From: a virus
Reading direction: 5' to 3' (one strand)
Virus record (IMG/VR): IMGVR_UViG_3300022932_000008
Coordinates: 1-40,653 of that record
Length of the DNA stretch: 40,653 nucleotides
The notes beneath the pieces were generated by a model. The model had not been told where the DNA came from. It did no database searches and saw nothing but the letters and a program-made list of their open reading frames with translations. The translations under genes were made by a program, and so were the position numbers. Positions 4,834 through 25,100 of the stretch are shown here, in pieces (within the stretch, counting starts at the first letter, position 1; every line of letters starts with the position of its first letter).

Positions 4834-5029
4834 TTGAATGAATATCTACTTTTGTCTGTAATGATTTACTGAACGCTGTCCATAACAGACCAGCTAGCAT
4901 TATAATTTTAGTAACCTTAGGCGAAACTCCTAGTTCCGCTAATAATCCTTGGTTTTCCGATAAAACACCGTAAGCAGTATCTAAAAAAGCGCCCAACGTA
5001 ACTAACCATGTGATAATTCTTGTTTTCAT
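4802..5029 (-). CDS. Candidate holin, 75 aa
   Basis: A short protein with two hydrophobic helices (IITWLVTLGAFLDTAYGVL and VTKIIMLAGLLWTAFS) and a charged C-terminal tail (HSIATPRVPKNK), as in class II holins. It heads the lysis cassette: holin, membrane protein, XhlA-like protein, GH19 endolysin, micropeptide, u-spanin. It would open the cytoplasmic membrane to release the endolysin. Confidence 0.7.
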   Translation of the reverse strand: MKTRIITWLVTLGAFLDTAYGVLSENQGLLAELGVSPKVTKIIMLAGLLWTAFSKSLQTKVDIHSIATPRVPKNK

Positions 5030-5053
5030 TTTATATTTATTTTAATTTGTTAA

Positions 5054-7672
5054 TTAATTATAAACCCGAATCTCAATTGAATTATTAAACAACTTACCAT
5101 CTGCATCGGTAAATGGCATTGTCCCATTGTCCTGTGTTCTAATTACTATTACATCGTCCGTATTTCTTAGAATCGCATAGTTTCCTGTAGTGCTAGATGG
5201 CGTAATTGATAAATGTGTTTTAGTTGCTGGAAATGCTCCTGACAAAGTTACAAAATAAAAACCTGGTGCTACATAGCTAAAAACAGGCGTCCCCCCTAGT
5301 GTATTTTCTAAAACTGTTACCGTGGGCGCACTTGTCCCTGTTTGATTAACTAAGGCTGAATAGACTTTGTAAGGTCTTATCGCTTTAACCTGTCCTAATG
5401 TTGCTAATTCAGTATCAACTGTTGCAGGTGGTGCCGTCACCTCTCCTGTTTTTTTAACTTTATATACTAACGTGCCGTTATTCTTTCCTTGATACAAATC
5501 TCCAGTAGCAGTAGGTTCTGAATCAGCGGAAAAAGCAACTCCTGAAGTTCCCGATATGTTTGCGACCGATATAGCCGAATTACTGGACGAATTATTTATA
5601 AAAACCGCTCGGCTGGAAGATGATATGTCAACTCTCATAAAATCACCAGAACCGTTAGATATACCGTTAATTACCCTGCTCCCTGTAGTTCCTGAGTTTG
5701 TTAAGGTAAATCCATTTGTTACACTATTCCCTGTATTTGTTGCTGATTTTACTCCTGTAAATGTCTGATTCCCTGATGATGCTAAAAAATTAGCGAATCC
5801 AAAAGCCGTTGTGGCAACCTGAGTTGTATTTGTTCCTGGTGCTGCTGTTGGTGCTGTTGGTGCGCCTGTTAAAATTGCACTACCTTTAAATATAGTTGCA
5901 TATACGCTACCGTTTACCTGTAATTTGTCCGTCAAATTGTCTGAAGTCTGACCGATTAAAACATTCCCGCCATCAGGATTTAAGGATAGGTTTCTGTAAT
6001 TTACCGTTGTTTCAATAGATTGGATGTAACCATAATTTCCCGACTGGTCATACCCTAATTGTAATTGTTTGTTGGGATTTGTTGCAGTTTTCAGCATCAA
6101 TTGACTTAAATCCGTTACAACACTAAATGACCCGTTCAATGTCGAATTTCCGTTTCTTAATATTTTAAGTAATGAATTTGCCCCACCTCTAACAAAGTTA
6201 AAAGCGCTTTTAGTATTATCTGTGAAATCTGTTCCTAAAAGAGATCTTACACTGAACCTCATGTCGTCAGTCATATTGTCGTCAGGAGTTGAAGACATCA
6301 GTGATAATCCTATTGAGTTAGAGGATTTTCCCACTAATACAGGGGTATTGAATCCCTCTTGGTCGTTAAGAAAATAAACATTGCCAGAACCTAAAGAAGA
6401 TATAGTGTTGGTAAAAGAAGTTCCTGTGGAGACATTAAATCTTCCTATTACAGATAAGTTTCCGATTTTTGTTTCGTCTAATGTTTTATGTAAAACATCA
6501 GAATCGTTAGCTGGAGTATATCCTAAAGCGCTAACCACATTAGCGAATGTCAAAGCTACGCCACCAGAAGCAATTCCTCCAAATTTCTGAGCCTCTACTA
6601 TTTTTGAATCACTAGCATTCAGTAAAGAAGTTGTATTATTTTTTAGAATTATATAAGCTCTAGTAACTCCATTTTCCTTGATGTTCGATTCCACATTATA
6701 GTCACGTGTAAATATTGCTGCTTGAGCGCTTTGTATATCGTCGTATACATTTTGACCATATTGGATTCTAGTCAATCCAGTTTGAAACATAGTTACAGTC
6801 TGAATTGTAAATTTATTATTTGGTACAGAAGTTAAAACATTATTTAAATCATATAGCGCAGGATTTAAGTTTATCCTGTCTGTTCCTTCAGTTCCGTTTT
6901 GAGTTCTATACCTAAAAGTTAAAGCTGTTTCTGATAATTGTGATATTTCGTGAGGGTTTTTCCAATCATTAGCAAAATTTACCCCAAACTTAAAAATAGT
7001 TCCAGCGCTTTTATTTAATGCTAAATTTGCTCCGTTGGCAGAATATTTATTGCCTGTTAAATTCAAAGCCCCTACAGCTTCAATAAAATCATGTAACTGA
7101 TTCCCTACTGCATTTGATGGAGCGGATATGTTGTTAACTACATTTATATTTGTTAAATTAGAATGTACTACAGCGCCTAAAACTATCAAATCACGCCTTT
7201 GCTCGGGCGTAAAAGGTGAGGCTTGCATTACAACAGATGGAGTGCTATTTATAGCTATATAAGTAATATTTCCAGTGGTTAAATAAGTTGGTGTAACTGC
7301 TGTAAATGCAGGAAAATTAATTATTGTACTTACTGGTATTTCTGGATTTGTGAAGTTAGAAATTATGCCTATTCCAGCAGATATATTAAATTTTGTAGGA
7401 TCTGCGTTAATTGATATTAAACCGTTTTTTAACAAGCCTGTTGATAAATCTGCTTTTTGCTTAATAGCATTTATCACAGATGTAGGTACAGGTAAATTAA
7501 CCGCATCAATATAGTTTATTTGTCCGTCAGATTCTTGGGTATTAATCTTTGTCGTTGAAGTCGAAACTCCGTTGGTATTCAAAGAAATCTTTCCGAATTT
7601 AGTCGGGTTAACTGGATATGTTTGACCGTAACTCGCTACGGTAATTAAAAGTAAAAAAAGTATTTTTTTCAT
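5054..7672 (-). CDS. Tail fibre / receptor-binding protein with N-terminal signal peptide, 872 aa
   Basis: A long, Ser/Thr/Asn/Gly-rich repetitive protein. The C-terminal third holds a motif common in tail fibres (GAPTAPTAAPGTNTTQVATT, about residue 600) and ends in a beta-rich domain, likely the receptor-binding tip. Unusually for a virion protein assembled in the cytoplasm, it begins with a typical flavobacterial Sec signal peptide, MKKILFLLLITVASYGQ. It follows the other distal tail genes and precedes the lysis cassette. The exact fibre or spike type cannot be told from sequence. Confidence 0.75.
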   Translation of the reverse strand: MKKILFLLLITVASYGQTYPVNPTKFGKISLNTNGVSTSTTKINTQESDGQINYIDAVNLPVPTSVINAIKQKADLSTGLLKNGLISINADPTKFNISAGIGIISNFTNPEIPVSTIINFPAFTAVTPTYLTTGNITYIAINSTPSVVMQASPFTPEQRRDLIVLGAVVHSNLTNINVVNNISAPSNAVGNQLHDFIEAVGALNLTGNKYSANGANLALNKSAGTIFKFGVNFANDWKNPHEISQLSETALTFRYRTQNGTEGTDRINLNPALYDLNNVLTSVPNNKFTIQTVTMFQTGLTRIQYGQNVYDDIQSAQAAIFTRDYNVESNIKENGVTRAYIILKNNTTSLLNASDSKIVEAQKFGGIASGGVALTFANVVSALGYTPANDSDVLHKTLDETKIGNLSVIGRFNVSTGTSFTNTISSLGSGNVYFLNDQEGFNTPVLVGKSSNSIGLSLMSSTPDDNMTDDMRFSVRSLLGTDFTDNTKSAFNFVRGGANSLLKILRNGNSTLNGSFSVVTDLSQLMLKTATNPNKQLQLGYDQSGNYGYIQSIETTVNYRNLSLNPDGGNVLIGQTSDNLTDKLQVNGSVYATIFKGSAILTGAPTAPTAAPGTNTTQVATTAFGFANFLASSGNQTFTGVKSATNTGNSVTNGFTLTNSGTTGSRVINGISNGSGDFMRVDISSSSRAVFINNSSSNSAISVANISGTSGVAFSADSEPTATGDLYQGKNNGTLVYKVKKTGEVTAPPATVDTELATLGQVKAIRPYKVYSALVNQTGTSAPTVTVLENTLGGTPVFSYVAPGFYFVTLSGAFPATKTHLSITPSSTTGNYAILRNTDDVIVIRTQDNGTMPFTDADGKLFNNSIEIRVYN

Positions 7673-7684
7673 GTTTATATTGGT

Positions 7685-8398
7685 TTATATTACTCCTGTA
7701 ACTATCACTCTATCATTAGTGTTTAATGTCCATGTTGGCAGTATTGTAAGTAGATTTCCTGATTGTAACCAGTCTACTGGATCTACAACAGTTCCGTTTA
7801 TTACAACAGAAATTAAGCTTGCTGTTGTTGCCAATGTGAATTCTTGCGGGTCTGGACTTGTGTAAGTAAAAATTTGTACATATCCGTTTGCTCCTGCTGG
7901 CGGATTAACTAACTCAAAAGATGTCCCTGTAGAATTTACTTGTAATATTGTTCCAGGGACTAAAGTAGTGGGAAAAAGGTTTAAATAATCTGTATTCGGC
8001 AATACTTTTGCAATAAGTCTTAACTGTGCCTCGTCTACTACAGGGACTTGACCATCTTTTCCAAAATAACTAAAAGTATCTTCTAATTCGTCAAATCTAT
8101 TAACTCCAGTACCGCCGCCTTCAGTTTGCCAATCAAAGAACCCTATTGATTCAAGTTTCAGTATTAAATCATCCATTGAAACCGCCTGAGGTAAAGAAAC
8201 TCCATCAATCAAAGTAACGTTTGAAAAAACAATATTCTGTTCTTTAATTATGTTTGCCCCATTATCTGTTTTGAAATGACAAAACTCTTTATAGCCAAGC
8301 AGGTTGTTTCTATTATTAGTCACAATATCAGCAACGTTTCCGTTAACCACGAAATCAAAGTAACCAACAGGTTTTTTTGTTATTGTTAATAGATTCAT
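7685..8398 (-). CDS. Distal tail / fibre-associated structural protein, 237 aa
   Basis: Not recognised as a named family. The N-terminal region is beta-rich (TITKKPVGYFDFVVNGN), the middle has an acidic linker (RFDELEDTFSYFGKDGQVPV), and the C-terminus is a Thr/Val-rich beta domain. The central motif resembles segments seen in Bacteroidota phage tail proteins. Its place between tail collar and fibre genes suggests a baseplate or fibre-adaptor role. Confidence 0.6.
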   Translation of the reverse strand: MNLLTITKKPVGYFDFVVNGNVADIVTNNRNNLLGYKEFCHFKTDNGANIIKEQNIVFSNVTLIDGVSLPQAVSMDDLILKLESIGFFDWQTEGGGTGVNRFDELEDTFSYFGKDGQVPVVDEAQLRLIAKVLPNTDYLNLFPTTLVPGTILQVNSTGTSFELVNPPAGANGYVQIFTYTSPDPQEFTLATTASLISVVINGTVVDPVDWLQSGNLLTILPTWTLNTNDRVIVTGVI

Positions 8399-8401
8399 AG
8401 C

Positions 8402-9142
8402 TTAGTCGTTAATATTTATTTCATAACAAATTAATGCGTTATAACACTCTTCAGAAATAATACCATTAGAGTAATATAGTAGGGCTAAATCTTTTATATG
8501 ACCCTCCTTTTCTTGTTTGTATTTTTCAAAAGCTTCCAACTCTGTATTAAAACGACCTAAAGATTTTGTTTTTGAGTCAATAGTTATTTGAGTTGAATAT
8601 TTTCCGTTTGTTAACTTATAAGTACCTATTAGTCCGTTTCTAGTTGTTTTACTATTAGTTAGCAGTGTGTTTATTTCTTTTGGCACAAAACAACACGTTT
8701 TTGGAGAATAAATTTTATTGCCTTTTATTAAAATATCTTTGTCCAGCTCATATCCTTCAATATATTTTTTTGAATACCAGTCTAAAAAATTTGGAAAAAA
8801 ATGCCATTCATCATCAGTTTTGCACCCAATATATGTAGGCTGTTTCTTTTGAATATTATCATCGTAACATCTTCCCATAATTCCTCTCCACGTCAAATAA
8901 GCTTTTTTAAAGTGTTTTAAGTTCGTGTCAGGTTGTCCAAATATCCCCACTCCATAAGCTGTTATTTCTAAAGGATTTGAAACTTGTCTATTTTTTAGAT
9001 TACCTATTGTTATAGATTTTATAATACAACCATTACTTAGAATTACGTCAACATTTCTTGCTCCTTTATAATTTATTACGGTGGCTGTTATATTGTTTTT
9101 TAACGTAAAAACTTTTCCTATATGTTCATTTGAGCCTTTCAT
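8402..9142 (-). CDS. Phage homing-endonuclease-like protein, 246 aa
   Basis: The middle region matches a family of free-standing phage endonucleases: AYLTWRGIMGRCYDD, then a DEWHFFPNFLDWY segment, then LDKDILIKGNKIYSPKTC and CFVPKEINTLL. After it comes an AP2-like DNA-binding region (GTYKLTNGKYSTQITI, then LGRFNTELEAFEKYK). The N-terminus has an extra small beta domain ending in a VSNP motif. It sits between two virion genes with 1-3 nt spacing and is not structural itself, as expected for an inserted selfish gene. Activity is not shown. Confidence 0.75.
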   Translation of the reverse strand: MKGSNEHIGKVFTLKNNITATVINYKGARNVDVILSNGCIIKSITIGNLKNRQVSNPLEITAYGVGIFGQPDTNLKHFKKAYLTWRGIMGRCYDDNIQKKQPTYIGCKTDDEWHFFPNFLDWYSKKYIEGYELDKDILIKGNKIYSPKTCCFVPKEINTLLTNSKTTRNGLIGTYKLTNGKYSTQITIDSKTKSLGRFNTELEAFEKYKQEKEGHIKDLALLYYSNGIISEECYNALICYEININD

Positions 9143-11360: not shown

Positions 11361-11957
11361 TTAATCTATTCCAAAATATAAGTCATTACTCAAGTCGTCT
11401 GTGTTTGAGTTTTTTAATGCTTCGATTAATTTAGCCTTACTTTCTTTGCATAATCCAAATCCGTAAGTCCTGTATCTATACGATCTTTCAAAGCTACTAA
11501 CAGGATATAGTAAATCTCCATCAATAACAAGCTTGTTGTTTGTCATATCTTCAAAAAAAGTATCTACAAGTAGGTTATAATAAATAACTCCTTCTGGCTC
11601 TTGTTTTCTTGCGTATGCAAATTTTGTAATACTGAAATCAAACTTTGAAATAATTTATTCGGCAGTTCCGTATGTGTTTCTTATTAGTTCAATTCTAATA
11701 TTCGTATTCTTGTTTTTATACGAAATTGTATTGTCGTTTTCGTATGATAAAATGTAATTTTCATTACTTTTAAAGTGTTCAACTGCTTCTAAAAAGTCTT
11801 TTTCATTCTCGAAGAAAATATCTAAATCTTTTATTTTCTGATTTTTAAATATATTCTTGAAACATCCACCAGCAATAAAACCTTTGTGGCATTCCATATA
11901 ATAATCTAAAAATCTAACTTTATTAAAAGTTTCTTTTGGGCGTTCAATAAAATTCAT
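11361..11957 (-). pseudogene. Nucleotidyltransferase-like gene with one in-frame TAA (readthrough candidate), 198 codons
   Basis: From ATG 11957 the frame runs 100 codons, meets TAA at 11657-11655, then continues in the same frame for 97 open codons to 11361. The first half has a nucleotidyltransferase-type motif (GFIAGGCFKN, residues 26-35, then KDLDIFF with Asp44 and Asp46). The second half starts ISKFDFSITKFAYAR, which looks like the continuation of the same phage family, where a YGT-P/A-E-E/Q segment precedes an FDF motif. The stop thus replaces one codon in an otherwise whole protein. It may be decay (the second half could restart at ATG 11546) or suppression by the UUA tRNA at 24998-25070. 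Confidence 0.7.
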
Positions 11958-11968
11958 ATATTTTTCTT

Positions 11969-12046
11969 TTAAGATTGCATTTTAACCGCAATGATTAATA
12001 CTAATGTAAAAAATGCTACTAACTTGATAATTTCTGACTTTTTCAT
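11969..12046 (-). CDS. Membrane micropeptide, 25 aa
   Basis: The frame encodes MKKSEIIKLVAFFTLVLIIA followed by VKMQS, a single transmembrane helix with positive N-terminus. It lies 31 nt below a strong promoter (12078-12110) and just before the split nucleotidyltransferase-like gene. A similar 31-aa peptide follows another promoter at 28221-28316. Confidence 0.45.
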   Translation of the reverse strand: MKKSEIIKLVAFFTLVLIIAVKMQS

Positions 12047-12077
12047 AACTGTTGGTTTTTAATTGATTATTACACTA

Positions 12078-12110
12078 CAAATATAATACTTATTTTTAAT
12101 TAAATGACAA
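12078..12110 (-). promoter_or_regulatory. Promoter of the accessory operon
   Basis: On the minus strand TTG (12110-12108), 22 nt, TATATTTG (12085-12078), matching the Bacteroidota consensus. It lies between the terminator at 12131-12159 and the micropeptide gene at 12046. Just upstream, 12117-12130 carries a loose variant (ATGCAAAATATTTT) of the 13-mer found at three other promoters. Confidence 0.75.
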
Positions 12111-12130
12111 TTAATTAAAATATTTTGCAT

Positions 12131-12159
12131 AAAAAAACCGCCCTGTTTTAGAGCGGTTT
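12131..12159 (-). terminator. Intrinsic terminator of the tail operon and candidate small RNA
   Basis: A 10-bp stem (AAACCGCTCT/AGGGCGGTTT, one G-U pair) with loop AAAAC is followed by a run of seven T on the minus strand. It lies about 90 nt below the end of the 836-aa tail gene and closes the candidate small RNA 12131-12228. Confidence 0.9.
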
Positions 12160-12228
12160 AAAATCAAAAAGATTTGTCTTATTTTTTCGTTAGATTGATT
12201 CTCAGTCCATCGAGAACCCCACAACGAA
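12131..12228 (-). ncRNA. Candidate small RNA, three hairpins, about 98 nt
   Basis: A complete promoter (12232-12262) would start transcription near 12226, and the terminator at 12131-12159 would end it. The first hairpin nests an outer stem TTCGTT/AACGAA and an inner stem GGTTCTC/GAGAATC. A weak AAATC-TTTTT-GATTT hairpin follows, then the terminator. There is no convincing short reading frame. Alternatively it is the 3' untranslated region of the tail operon. Target unknown. Confidence 0.5.
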
Positions 12229-12231
12229 TTA

Positions 12232-12262
12232 CAAATATACAAAAAACTTACAACAAATCCAA
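12232..12262 (-). promoter_or_regulatory. Promoter at the 3' end of the tail-hub gene
   Basis: On the minus strand TTG (12262-12260), 20 nt, TATATTTG (12239-12232), a full consensus match that overlaps the last codons and stop of the 836-aa gene. The only product before the terminator at 12159 would be the candidate small RNA. Confidence 0.6.
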
Positions 12263-14758
12263 CCAACTTTTTAATATTTCTATAGTTTCTGGAATCGCTC
12301 CGTTTACTGAAACTTTATCCCAATATACTCCATTATATAAACGCTGTCTTTCTAAATCATATAAAATAACCTGCTTATCTCTGTCTAACACAACTTTATC
12401 ATAAATCAATTTGCGTAATCTAGTTTCGTCGTTAATCGTAATGATTCCGTTCTGTTTAGTAATGGTTAAATATGATTTTTCGAACTTCTCCTGACCCGAA
12501 ATAGTTAATTGTCTGTTCTTGTTCTCGTAGCTCATTTTAATCGGATAAAGCTTTAAAACACGGTTGTTGTTGTCTATAGTTCGGATAAAACCACGGTTAA
12601 CTCTTAAGCTATCCCACATTGTAAGAACTTTTTCAAAATCAACATTCGCAAAAACTACATCTTCATACATATAAGGCGTTACAATTGGATCAGTTGGTGT
12701 CCAGTCCTCTTTTTCAATAATTCTTAATCCTGCGTATTCAGTCTCGCATAATCCATTGTTTTTATAAAATGTATTCTTTAGAACTTTGTCTTTGTGGTAA
12801 ATATTGACAGTTGCTAAAAATCTATTCCAATAGTTACGAATATTTCTTTGAACTGAGTAACGTAAATTGCTGTATCTGTCAGGAGACAATAAATTTAAAA
12901 TAACATTAAACCCTTGATTAGTTCTGTTGGTTAACGGAATTGTTTCTTTTTTGATTTCGTATGTATATTTAGTCAATCGTATACCATCATTAGATGCTGA
13001 AATTGAACCTCCGCTAGTTTTTGTTAATATCAATTCAGTGTTAACAACAGAAACAACATTATAAACTCCTGCGTTTGCATCTGGGTATTCTATTGTAAAA
13101 GAAGAATTCTCTCTGATTCCTAAAACTATAAAATTAACATCGCCATTACTTCTTAATGATAATTGACCATTTCCGAATGAATGCTGTAAATTAGTAGACT
13201 CAGTGAATTTCTGATCGTTTTCTGTCGCAATAGTATCAATGGCAAAAATCTTGTCATCGTCCTGCGTTGCTGTATCTTTGCTTACTTTAGTGGATAACCT
13301 CTGCTGAACATCTAACAATATTGCATCACGAATCCATTTAACTGTCAATTCACGTGCATTTTCAACTCTTTTATTGAAAGGTGTAAATTTACTTTCTCCG
13401 TGAATTGTACTTTCCGAATTAGGCTCTGTAATTTCTTTTTTTGATTGGTAGTTTTCATACTTAAAACCAAAATCATTAAGCATGTATAAAGGATTAGGCT
13501 TTCTATTTAATCCCGAGAATTGAGTATTATTAAAAAAGCCACATTCAATATTTGTATAAAAATCATCTTCATTACCAACGAATACCCGTTTATCTATTTG
13601 TATGTAGGAATCCGCATTGTGTTCTGGAATAAAAGATTTTTCTAAATCATCCCAACTAACATAAAACGGATCTGTAATATTTCCTCCTAGCATTTTACCG
13701 TTTGTTAATATAGTGTCGTAGTGCTGTCCACCAACATCGTAACGGGGCGCAAATACTTCTAGTCCTGATGTTGATTTTGCAATTTGCTTCATTACATCTA
13801 TTAAACGAAAACACGGAACTATCGAATTGTAAGCGGTTGATTCTGCTGTTATTTCAATATATTCGTTTTTTATATTTATTTGACCGGCTACTCTAAAAAA
13901 TATTGCTAATTCAGAATTTCTACTCATCTCAGGAATATTGTAATTTACATCTCCTGTCCAAATAGGAGCGTTTGCTGGAAAAGTTCTGAGTAATATTTTT
14001 TGACTATCAACCATTAAGAATAATTCTCCAATGTTTGTTGTCGTAAATTCCAATCCTTTTATTAATATTTTAACGTTTTTAAGATTGCTTTGCGCTTTAA
14101 TAAGCATAAAGTTTTGTCTGTTTACATTATCGTCATTATTATAAAAGCGATTATCGGATAGAAAAGTTAAAGAATCTTCTATGCCTGACAAGGATAAGTT
14201 CTGGCAAATATTTACAGCAGCTCTAATATTTTGCGTATTGTAAAATTTTGATTCTGTAATTGGTGTCCACTTACTAGTCTGCAAAGTCGGCTTAGCTTGC
14301 AACAACATATTAATAGGTGTTAACGTCTCTATTGATTCATTATCTGTGTTTAAACTAGAAAACAAATCTACTTTAGTTTCGCTTCTACGTCTAAAAATCT
14401 GCATTTGACTTTCTAAAATAACAGGACATTCAAAGTAATTGAAGTCGTTGGTTTCAGCCATTGCAAAATCTAATTCACCTGTATATTCTTGACCAGTAGA
14501 AAGAACAATTATAAGTTTTATGTTTGCTTCAAAACCGTATCTGTGCGCGTAATACAATATTTGGTCGAAAGCCGATCCGTGTCTGTACATAGTAAATCTA
14601 AAACTTACTGAGCCGCCAGACAAAGAAACGTCTAAAGCCATTCCGTTCTTGCGTCTTTCGAGAACGAAATCTACTTCAGAATAGTTTATCGGTTCGTTAA
14701 TTTGAACGCGATTATTTGGTTGTTCACTGAATATCAAATAGAATTTTTCTCCCGCCAT
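12248..14758 (-). CDS. Tail hub / baseplate protein candidate, 836 aa
   Basis: A large protein directly downstream of the tape measure gene (one-base overlap), the usual position of the distal tail, hub or tail-associated lysin proteins in siphoviruses. It is beta-rich with many aromatic and Asn residues; no lytic domain was recognised. The N-terminal 130 residues (YLIFSEQPNNRVQI, then TYRHGSAF-like and EYTGELDFAMAE segments) look like a distal-tail-type domain. The function is inferred from gene order. Confidence 0.65.
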   Translation of the reverse strand: MAGEKFYLIFSEQPNNRVQINEPINYSEVDFVLERRKNGMALDVSLSGGSVSFRFTMYRHGSAFDQILYYAHRYGFEANIKLIIVLSTGQEYTGELDFAMAETNDFNYFECPVILESQMQIFRRRSETKVDLFSSLNTDNESIETLTPINMLLQAKPTLQTSKWTPITESKFYNTQNIRAAVNICQNLSLSGIEDSLTFLSDNRFYNNDDNVNRQNFMLIKAQSNLKNVKILIKGLEFTTTNIGELFLMVDSQKILLRTFPANAPIWTGDVNYNIPEMSRNSELAIFFRVAGQINIKNEYIEITAESTAYNSIVPCFRLIDVMKQIAKSTSGLEVFAPRYDVGGQHYDTILTNGKMLGGNITDPFYVSWDDLEKSFIPEHNADSYIQIDKRVFVGNEDDFYTNIECGFFNNTQFSGLNRKPNPLYMLNDFGFKYENYQSKKEITEPNSESTIHGESKFTPFNKRVENARELTVKWIRDAILLDVQQRLSTKVSKDTATQDDDKIFAIDTIATENDQKFTESTNLQHSFGNGQLSLRSNGDVNFIVLGIRENSSFTIEYPDANAGVYNVVSVVNTELILTKTSGGSISASNDGIRLTKYTYEIKKETIPLTNRTNQGFNVILNLLSPDRYSNLRYSVQRNIRNYWNRFLATVNIYHKDKVLKNTFYKNNGLCETEYAGLRIIEKEDWTPTDPIVTPYMYEDVVFANVDFEKVLTMWDSLRVNRGFIRTIDNNNRVLKLYPIKMSYENKNRQLTISGQEKFEKSYLTITKQNGIITINDETRLRKLIYDKVVLDRDKQVILYDLERQRLYNGVYWDKVSVNGAIPETIEILKSWLDLL

Positions 14759-17412
14759 TATGAAAATCTTGTTTTAATAGAGTTTCCTCTGTTGCTTGCC
14801 GAACGTGTAATGTTTCCTTTTTTCATTATGTAGGATGTCGCACCATTGGCATCAAAATTAGAATGATATTGAGGTTGTTCTCCAATAGCCTCAATCATTG
14901 CGCTTTTCATGTCCTCTTTTGTGATACCTGATTTGTGATGCTGTGGTAAGCTCCAATTAATTCCGTTTCCTTGTAACATATTATTCATTTGCTCCGACCA
15001 TTGATCGTGTGTAAATATTTCAGTTCCTGCTGGAGCGTTCATTATTACGTTTTTACCCTGTGGCTTATGAATGTTTCCGTCTGGAGTGACAATTGTCTCT
15101 CTGTAATTACTTCCTGATCCGTCATTAACCATCATTAAACCACCGTCGTGAGTTCCCCCCATCCAATACTGAGGTATTTTTTGACTTGCTACTAATGCAA
15201 TCTGTGCAGCTCCTAAGGCGCCTACAACAGCAGCCAATGGAATAGCAGCAGGAAACCCAGGTTTAGCCCATAATCCAATTATAGCCTGCGCGGTGTCAAC
15301 TGCAATATTAAATATAGCTTGTTTTTGCTTAGCTTTATTTTCACGATTAGCAATATCTTTTTTCTGCTTTTCTAAATCTAATGCTAACTTTTCTTGCGCT
15401 GCTTTGTTCCCGTTTGCGAATTCATATGCTATATCGTATTGATTCTGCAAACGCTCTCTTTCTGCATCGAAATTTTGTTGACTAGCGTTTGATATAAAAT
15501 TAAATGCCTCTTGTGCGCTTTCTGCTATTGCGTTAAATGTGACTGCAAAGTTTTTTCCAAATCCATCAATATCACCGTTAAGCATTTTGAATGTTTCGGA
15601 AAATCCACTATTTTGAAAAAACTCGCTAGAGAATGATTCTAAATACTGTTTTTGTAAGTCGGTTAGCTGAGTTTTTAAAACCTCTAACTCAGTAGACACT
15701 TCTTTTATATTTGCCGTAGATATAATTTCTCCGTTTCCTGTTATTAAATCTGATTTAGCTTTATTTACCTGTTCTAAAGCTATTTTTATATTCTTATAAG
15801 CTTCTTCGTTTCCTGCATTTAAAATCAGTTCGGTTTCAAGCATGTCAATATACTTGTCTAGCTGTTGTATTGTTGTTCCAATAGCAATACTTTCTAAATT
15901 TAAAGCCTCTATTTTTTCTCGCTTATCCTGTTTTTCTTTTTTTATTTTTGGCTCTGTTATTTTAATTCTATCAGCCTCCAATACAGCAGAGTTTTTCTCG
16001 AATTTTTCTTTTGCTTTAAGCAATAAATCATCTTCTTGCAACGATCTTCTTCTAAAATCTTCTAATTCTTTTCTTCTTTTGTTTAAGTTTTTTTGCAAAT
16101 TGACAGTAACCTCTTCAGCTGAAAATATTTCTGCATTATCTTCTCCTCCTAAAAACGCTCTTGGATTAGCTCTTTGTTTTGCTAATTTTTCTTCAAGTTC
16201 AGCAATACTTTCTCTTATTCCTAATTCTTTTTCTAGTCTATCGCTAGCTCTGCTTTCTAATTCAGACTGAACCGCCTTAGCTCTTGCTGAGTCAAAAATA
16301 GCTTCACGCAATAAAACATAAGAATCTTTTGCTTTACCGTTTAATATAATTTCATCCTGAATATTGGCGAAATAAGAAGGGTATTCTTTTTGTAATTTAT
16401 TAACTGCTCTTTGTCTTTGCTCAGTAGACAAAGCAACGTTAGTAGCTGTTTTATATAAAATATCTAATTGACTTATTTCTTTTGCAGCATCCTTGTTACC
16501 TTCTTTTATCGCTTCGTTTAGTGATGTTTGATTCTCTTTTAAGCTTTTTATACTGTCAGACCCTTTTGATACTGAAGAAATCCATTTTAAAAATTCACCT
16601 CCATATAAAGTAAGCAAGGTAACTCCTAATGAAATAGCGGTTTGTAAAGAGAAAAAAGAAGTTGCAATTTGTCCTAAAACAGATTTTGTTGGCTGTCCGC
16701 TTTTTGCTAACTCCTTATTGGCGTTGGTTAGCTTTATAATTTCATCTGTAAATATCGGAATATTGTTTGATAAGGCTAAAAAACCCGTATTTAAAGACAC
16801 AGCGAAAGCAGGAGCTTCACGGGTTAATTGATTTATAGAATTTCCTAATGAATTGAAACCACTGGCATAATTTCCAACATTACGCTGATTTTTACCTATT
16901 TGAGTATCTGTGTTTTTTAATGCTGTTTGATAAGTGTTAATTCTAGCTGATAAAGCAGTTAGTTGTTTTTCTTCTTTTGCCGTTAATGTATTCCCAAGCT
17001 CTTTTCTTATTGCTAAATCATTATATGTTTTAGTCAGTAAGTTTAAACTATTTTGGATTCTTTGATAAGCTCCTTCTGCTTTTATTAATGCAACCTCTTC
17101 TTTTTTAGCGTTTTTCTCAAATGAATCAAATGATTTTTCCCTTTGTTGTTGTAAACGAATTTCTGCTAATCTGCTTTGCTCTGCTTTTTTAACAATAGTA
17201 TCACTTAGAGATACGTATTTAGCTTTTAAAGCGTCTATCTCAACTCCAGCCTTAGCGTTATCGCTCACTGATTTATTCAATCCTCCAGGAGTAGTTATAT
17301 TGATTGTGTTTTTGTTCACATTCATAACCTCCTGAGAAAGTTTAATTAATTCAGCTCTTAAATCCTGTACTTGCTTTATCGCCTTTGAGCCAATTTCTAT
17401 TTCGTCAGCCAT
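14758..17412 (-). CDS. Tape measure protein, 884 aa
   Basis: It sets tail length and may form the DNA channel. The N-terminal half is a long coiled coil rich in Lys/Glu/Gln; central hydrophobic helices occur at about 245-270 (ISLGVTLLTLYGGEFLKWI) and about 730-760 (IPLAAVVGALGAAQIALVA). The Gly/Asn-rich C-terminus (GGTHDGGLMMVNDGSGSNYR, then a TEIFTHDQW motif) matches the usual end of such proteins. It is the longest gene in the genome, directly after the chaperone candidate. The opposite-strand reading frame at 15842-16270 is a shadow. Confidence 0.9.
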   Translation of the reverse strand: MADEIEIGSKAIKQVQDLRAELIKLSQEVMNVNKNTINITTPGGLNKSVSDNAKAGVEIDALKAKYVSLSDTIVKKAEQSRLAEIRLQQQREKSFDSFEKNAKKEEVALIKAEGAYQRIQNSLNLLTKTYNDLAIRKELGNTLTAKEEKQLTALSARINTYQTALKNTDTQIGKNQRNVGNYASGFNSLGNSINQLTREAPAFAVSLNTGFLALSNNIPIFTDEIIKLTNANKELAKSGQPTKSVLGQIATSFFSLQTAISLGVTLLTLYGGEFLKWISSVSKGSDSIKSLKENQTSLNEAIKEGNKDAAKEISQLDILYKTATNVALSTEQRQRAVNKLQKEYPSYFANIQDEIILNGKAKDSYVLLREAIFDSARAKAVQSELESRASDRLEKELGIRESIAELEEKLAKQRANPRAFLGGEDNAEIFSAEEVTVNLQKNLNKRRKELEDFRRRSLQEDDLLLKAKEKFEKNSAVLEADRIKITEPKIKKEKQDKREKIEALNLESIAIGTTIQQLDKYIDMLETELILNAGNEEAYKNIKIALEQVNKAKSDLITGNGEIISTANIKEVSTELEVLKTQLTDLQKQYLESFSSEFFQNSGFSETFKMLNGDIDGFGKNFAVTFNAIAESAQEAFNFISNASQQNFDAERERLQNQYDIAYEFANGNKAAQEKLALDLEKQKKDIANRENKAKQKQAIFNIAVDTAQAIIGLWAKPGFPAAIPLAAVVGALGAAQIALVASQKIPQYWMGGTHDGGLMMVNDGSGSNYRETIVTPDGNIHKPQGKNVIMNAPAGTEIFTHDQWSEQMNNMLQGNGINWSLPQHHKSGITKEDMKSAMIEAIGEQPQYHSNFDANGATSYIMKKGNITRSASNRGNSIKTRFS

Positions 17413-17415
17413 AAT

Positions 17416-18048
17416 TTAATTTTTTTTAGATATTTCGTGTATCATTTTACAAATCTCTATCCATTCAGAAAGAACCATTATTCTAGGATTCATTTCGTAA
17501 TTTGGAAGTGCTGACTTTGCAATAACTATTTGAGCATATAAATTCTTGGCTTCTTTTCTTCCATCGTCTTTTAATTCATTAGCTAATAAAGCAATTTGAG
17601 TACTAATACCTTCTAGTGATTTTCTAAAATTTATTATCAATTCTTTATCAGCTTCAAGGCTATTTAATTCTGGAAACTTAAATCCCCATTTTCTTAACTC
17701 TTTAATGATTAAAAACCTTTGCTCCTGTTCTTTTATGTCGTTTCCGAATCCCATCCACATAAACTCTAGAAGCGAATCGACGATTTTGTACTTAGATTTT
17801 AATGCATCTATTTTAGCCCATTTCTGTATTTTCAATGAAAATGATCTATCATCAATTGCTTTAAAATACTGGTCTTGTATCGATTCCTCTACTTTGTCAA
17901 GTTCAGGGCAAGATATTTTTTTTTGTCTACCGTCGTAATCTACCAAAAACCAATTATTATCCTTGGTTTGGGTGTATTTATCCCATCTATAAAGCGTCAA
18001 GTGGTCTATAGTAGAATAATGGTTAGGTAATGAATTAACTTTTTTCAT
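17416..18048 (-). CDS. Putative tail assembly chaperone, 210 aa
   Basis: No clear family. It is a soluble, mostly helical protein with a beta-rich N-terminus (HLTLYRWDKYTQ) located immediately before the tape measure gene, where tail assembly chaperones are normally encoded. I looked for a programmed -1 frameshift joining it to the upstream 61-aa gene; they only share an ATGA overlap, so a frameshift is not needed. Confidence 0.5.
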   Translation of the reverse strand: MKKVNSLPNHYSTIDHLTLYRWDKYTQTKDNNWFLVDYDGRQKKISCPELDKVEESIQDQYFKAIDDRSFSLKIQKWAKIDALKSKYKIVDSLLEFMWMGFGNDIKEQEQRFLIIKELRKWGFKFPELNSLEADKELIINFRKSLEGISTQIALLANELKDDGRKEAKNLYAQIVIAKSALPNYEMNPRIMVLSEWIEICKMIHEISKKN

Positions 18049-24886: not shown

Positions 24887-24925
24887 TAAAAAAGGACTAC
24901 CCACAATTAAGCAGGTAATCCTTTT
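24887..24925. terminator. Terminator between tRNA and portal gene
   Basis: A 12-position stem with one mismatch (AAAAGGACTACC/GGTAATCCTTTT) and a 12-nt loop is flanked by T runs on both strands. It would end the terminase-tRNA transcript; the portal ATG is only about 13 nt downstream, with no good promoter between, so read-through or a weak promoter is needed. Confidence 0.8.
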
Positions 24926-24997
24926 GTTATTTTTTAAAACTGATTTTGTCATATTATCGATGTTATCGCAACATTGAAAGTTTATAATTTAATAAAT

Positions 24998-25070
24998 AGT
25001 TTATACAGGATTCGAACCTGTGACGCAGGCGACTAAAACGGTCTTGCTCTACCAGCTGAGCTAATAAACT
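24998..25070 (-). tRNA. tRNA with irregular anticodon arm; best-folding anticodon UUA (ochre suppressor candidate)
   Basis: The acceptor stem AGTTTAT/ATAAACT, the D arm GCTC/GAGC and the T arm ACAGG-TTCGAAT-CCTGT are all perfect; no CCA is encoded. The anticodon stem is imperfect. The best fold pairs AG(A)CCG with CGCCT (one bulge, one C-C mismatch), giving loop TTTTAGT, a 5-nt variable loop and anticodon UUA at 25036-25034, which would read UAA. A register giving UUU (Lys) forms only one stem pair. Flanks extend the acceptor helix to 14 bp. A TATATTTG box lies at 25090-25083, but no clear -33 element. It could be functional, an odd suppressor, or decayed. Confidence 0.75.
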
Positions 25071-25100
25071 ATTTATTTAAAGCAAATATAGTAATTTATT

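Follow-up and report, generated by a model that had tools for sequence, protein, structure and literature searches.

The window, a stretch of 40,653 nucleotides (positions 1 to 40,653 of IMG/VR record IMGVR_UViG_3300022932_000008), carries a gene of a phage nucleotidyltransferase family that is broken by one in-frame stop codon (Table 1). Translation of the window gave a frame of 198 codons followed by a terminal TAA, in which the TAA at codon 101 is the sole internal stop and all 97 codons 3' of it are open, as the initial annotation had read it. The same genome carries a tRNA gene called by ARAGORN as tRNA-Stop(tta).

Table 1. Positions of the interrupted gene, the tRNA and associated features in the window
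Feature	Position	Strand	Description or basis
Nucleotidyltransferase gene, CCA-adding-enzyme head-like, PHROG 4400	11361..11957	-	198 codons, interrupted at codon 101
In-frame TAA, codon 101	11655..11657	-	Glu codon in 6/6 IMG/VR relatives
N-terminal half: GG (30-31), DxD (44, 46), E90	11658..11957	-	Invariant columns
C-terminal half: FDFxI..F block (106-113), FE (135-136), LV (143-144), R158, YG (165-166)	11364..11654	-	Conservation, own PHROG match, dN/dS
Upstream region: Bacteroidetes-type promoter-like TATATTTG and short leader ORF (MKKSEIIKLVAFF...)	11965..12100	-	Sequence read; promoter by motif only
tRNA-Stop(tta) gene	24996..25071	-	ARAGORN; acceptor and T stems intact, anticodon stem 3/5 pairs, no CCA encoded
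~100-bp tRNA-carrying insertion	24978..25079	-	Missing from sister phage L083/L017

A CCA-adding-head-like protein encoded by a probable cargo gene

Exploring the read-through product by profile search, we found that PHROG 4400 matches it over residues 6-198 (E 1.3e-56) and that each half searched alone matches its own part of the profile (first half E 1.3e-25, second half E 5.4e-25), which bears out the proposal that both sides of the TAA belong to the same protein. A PDB sequence search returned no match up to E 1, and the family call therefore rests on the fold together with PHROG. The AlphaFold model of the read-through protein, taken from a run with 13 input sequences, had a mean pLDDT of 86.8 (a run with 6 sequences gave 60); its best Foldseek matches were CCA-adding enzymes (E 1.4e-7), and VIA-align superposed it on a Thermotoga CCA-adding enzyme with CTP with a Z of 15.0 over 183 aligned residues (rmsd 3.6 A), in agreement with the nucleotidyltransferase identity given to the gene at the outset. 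Since the Pfam PolyA_pol match (12.9 bits) fell below the gathering cutoff of 23, we call the predicted protein CCA-adding-head-like and do not claim CCA-adding activity. Its function is probably to mend or extend 3' ends of RNA (tRNA) during infection; CCA-adding enzymes of jumbo phages have been discussed as agents of tRNA end repair (PMC7824862). Residues G30 G31, D44, D46 and E90, invariant in 10 and in 13 sequences and presumed catalytic by analogy with the superfamily, all lie 5' of the stop. The FDFxI..F block and other residues, together about half of those that are invariant, fall after it, and a truncated product would be without roughly half of the aligned fold. In the model the stop itself falls within helix 99-103.

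The gene was found in none of 34 phage records related to the window through terminase or tail genes, many of these records being fragments. It is 89% identical at the nucleotide level to the copy in G003, with which few other stretches can be aligned, at 69-76% identity. It thus appears to be accessory and looks like horizontally moving cargo; the promoter-like TATATTTG and the leader ORF upstream suggest that it is transcribed separately. The promoter motif points to a Flavobacteria-like host, and the phage is a probable Bacteroidetes phage. In a Robertmurraya prophage (L127) the homologue is split by a frameshift, hence loss of the gene is seen elsewhere; there the frameshifted homologue (4974-5623) is directly followed by a second, larger nucleotidyltransferase-like gene (5641-6840). 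Between the tail and nucleotidyltransferase genes of the window, at 12130-12245 on the minus strand, lies a candidate small RNA composed of TATATTTG, ~100 nt and a GC-rich hairpin with a T-run.

Origin of the stop and selection on the two halves

Alignment of homologues showed that codon 101 is a sense codon in all close relatives: the six IMG/VR relatives L001-L006 have Glu, with GAA in the five that were read at codon level or translated in frame (printed for L001-L004). The TAA differs from this GAA by one base, as expected of a recent nonsense allele, and therefore most likely arose by a single G-to-T change. A Glu/Gln/Lys-type residue had been anticipated at this position; the six close relatives agree with this, but in wider phage relatives the position is occupied by E, W, K, V or M. 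Because of this variation the residue at codon 101 is not critical, and the position does not qualify as a conserved Glu/Gln/Lys site. The same data could be accounted for by a one-base error of sequencing or assembly in a phage that really has GAA. No more than a single miscalled base is required, the frame is otherwise intact, Glu is found in 6/6 relatives and the source is an uncultivated-virus record. Against this, well-covered assemblies seldom carry consensus errors, and we regard an error as unlikely. A search of IMG/VR for near-identical copies of the stop site returned none, so there was no near-identical contig to compare.

To characterize selection on the two halves, we compared the window with L003. 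The N-terminal half showed 28 synonymous and 0 nonsynonymous codon changes (dS 0.97, dN 0.004) and the C-terminal half 25 and 2 (dS 1.25, dN 0.016), the two nonsynonymous counts being the stop itself and an artefact of the doubly changed codon 158, which is Arg in both. On the window branch, polarised synonymous changes in the C-terminal half number 6 and, apart from the stop, no amino-acid change is clear, whereas ~24 amino-acid changes would be expected under neutrality (estimated by hand from 188/46 sites); an untranslated state could therefore cover only about the last fifth of the branch or less. Strong purifying selection thus acted on the C-terminal half until very recently, or acts on it still. 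Given heavy synonymous change and a nearly unchanged protein after the stop, either the interruption is young or production of the second half continues, and conservation of this half alone does not distinguish between a recent nonsense mutation and functioning readthrough.

The tRNA-Stop(tta) and the use of TAA in the genome

The initial annotation had proposed that the TAA is read through by the phage's own suppressor, a tRNA with the anticodon UUA. In such a scheme the tRNA would read the TAA in some ribosomes, and the full enzyme would be made only once the tRNA had accumulated. Several features are consistent with it. The anticodon read by ARAGORN is UUA, which pairs with UAA; the gene reaches the Rfam tRNA threshold (48 bits), has perfect acceptor and T stems and lies directly behind a promoter-like TATATTTG; the C-terminal half of the enzyme is conserved, and given the tolerance of codon 101 among relatives any inserted residue should do. 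The base after the TAA is A, not U, and a U at this +4 position is reported to lower readthrough (PMC5289835). The anticodon arm, on the other hand, is abnormal. In the ARAGORN drawing its stem reads G-U, A/C, C/C, C-G, G-C, that is, three of five pairs, one of them G-U, with the mismatches in the centre, and not the 5-bp stem of a canonical cloverleaf; in 42 tRNAs of three other phages, 41 have five (33) or four (8) pairs and one has three. Cloverleafs forced to hold UUA in the loop reached -12.4 to -12.7 kcal/mol and an open arm scored better (-13.1), while the best local fold, with a GAC/GUC arm (-15.0 kcal/mol), shifts the loop and places a different triplet in it. The call of a UUA tRNA thus stands, but as a decoder the molecule is structurally doubtful.

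The insertion that carries the tRNA has no counterpart in a sister contig (L083/L017), although the sequence to either side of it matches there at 88-89% identity. This absence also argues against the suppressor; the element is recent, or has been lost in the sister. No exact relatives of the anticodon arm were found in IMG/VR, and a search for the origin of the tRNA in phage and plasmid records gave only generic tRNA matches. Around the tRNA (24980-25085, minus strand), matching flanks AATAAATAGTTTAT and ATAAACTATTTATT lengthen the acceptor stem into a 14-bp perfect inverted repeat. The surrounding region between the terminase and portal genes (24890-25090, minus strand) consists of the promoter-like TATATTTG, ~100 nt and a hairpin with a T-run; the arrangement recurs in L017, L049, L059 and L033, where the tRNA is lacking. 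This unit, which the one at 12130-12245 resembles, may be a small RNA gene that has received the tRNA by insertion.

Analysis of stop codons across the window likewise speaks against suppression of TAA. TAA ends 25 of the 43 genes (58%), compared with 55-77% in 14 related phages, and is thus not depleted as a terminator. Backup stops within 7 codons show no excess after TAA (22/37 TAA ends vs 19/31 others). With relatives covering 69% of the window, the stop in the nucleotidyltransferase gene is the only in-frame stop inside a conserved gene, and together with the undepleted TAA terminators this rules out genome-wide TAA recoding. ARAGORN called no suppressor tRNA in the 14 related phages; in the available parts of their genomes, twelve lacked tRNAs altogether and two had ordinary ones. 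Several tblastn alignments crossed other stops; after filtering of shadow frames, those left lay either before a start or where a gene ends. ORFs 8402-9142, 7685-8398 and 5054-7672 (minus strand, 5054-9142) share a frame with only TAA stops between them, yet relatives do not support a fusion, and what aligns across the TAA at 8402-8404 is noise, located before the next start. Similarly, ORF 17416-18048 and the large ORF 14758-17412, probably the tape-measure gene, lie in one frame with only a TAA between them (14758-18048, minus strand), probably by chance. With the arm defective, the insertion absent from the sister, TAA in full use as the main stop and no second suppressed TAA in genes comparable with relatives, suppressor-dependent expression seems quite improbable, and beyond coincidence nothing here points to readthrough. 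An elaborated form, in which an ochre (UAA) suppressor tRNA without an encoded CCA permits by readthrough the phage's own CCA-adding-like enzyme, and the two control each other as a self-contained switch, would be very improbable indeed.

A probable recent nonsense allele and its relation to known systems

It is also very unlikely that the gene is kept partly active by low-level readthrough by near-cognate host tRNAs or as a functional split protein made as separate halves: conservation after the stop would fit, and some in-frame stops have been argued to persist with dN/dS below 1 (PMC7918605), but basal readthrough would yield very little enzyme, and the second half would not be made whole. 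The first ATG, GTG or TTG after the TAA is ATG 11546; it is codon 138 and lies beyond the 106-113 block, so independent expression from this ATG, as had been considered, is unlikely to give a useful product.

Together, the data suggest that the TAA is probably a loss-of-function nonsense allele that arose recently, by a change from G to T, in an optional nucleotidyltransferase gene of the phage, and not a programmed stop. An ordinary loss-of-function mutation is most likely because the nearby 'suppressor' tRNA looks damaged. On this nonsense-allele reading, an optional cargo gene would encode a small nucleotidyltransferase similar in shape to the catalytic head of class II CCA-adding enzymes, and a single change would very recently have turned Glu101 (GAA) into TAA. 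Translation would halt after 100 residues, leaving a product that lacks the second half of the fold and should therefore have no activity; meaningful suppression would be absent, and the allele would be one of those that survive in populations for a short time. In bacterial genes such in-frame stops are frequent and do not last long, and the mobilome category has more than its share of them (PMC7918605). Two points weigh against a nonsense allele: the call of a matching suppressor tRNA behind a promoter-like motif in the same genome would be a coincidence, and the lack of decay in the C-terminal half would also be explained by sustained readthrough.

If the stop is an ordinary nonsense allele, the case is mainly a caution that one in-frame TAA accompanied by a 'tRNA-Stop' call from ARAGORN does not amount to evidence of recoding, and that the anticodon stem should be looked at first. 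If readthrough were true, the window would offer a rare example of a small phage suppressing UAA in a single gene, and a suppressor tRNA would be linked to an enzyme whose substrates may be the ends of tRNAs.

The allele resembles the short-lived in-frame stop alleles described for bacterial as well as mobile genes by Belinky et al. 2021 (PMC7918605) in being a single nonsense change with low dN/dS in a mobile gene; unlike those, the stop is carried by only one sequence. As in crAss-like phages and phages with theta-ribozyme-linked suppressor tRNAs, a tRNA called as a suppressor is found in a probable Bacteroidetes phage, and suppressor tRNAs without visible recoding have been reported in crAss-like phages (PMC12386605). 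In those two groups, however, the reported cases consulted use UAG or UGA (99.7% of theta-ribozyme-linked suppressor tRNAs are of the UAG type; PMC10879173), whereas here a single TAA in an accessory gene is accompanied by a malformed tRNA. The encoded protein shares with the head of the T. maritima class II CCA-adding enzyme / poly(A) polymerase (3h3a, 3h39) the fold over 183 of its 198 residues, the GG and DxD motifs and, in what appears to be the place of motif B, the FDFxI block. It differs from class II CCA-adding enzymes in that its ~200 aa are too few to include the body and tail domains that bind tRNA, and sequence identity to 3h3a and 3h39 is only 16-18%. Its full-length homologues are the PHROG 4400 proteins of Streptococcus thermophilus, Listeria, Maribacter and Thomasclavelia phages (39-46% identity), the Thomasclavelia protein being annotated as a CCA tRNA nucleotidyltransferase, and what sets the window copy apart from these is its internal TAA.
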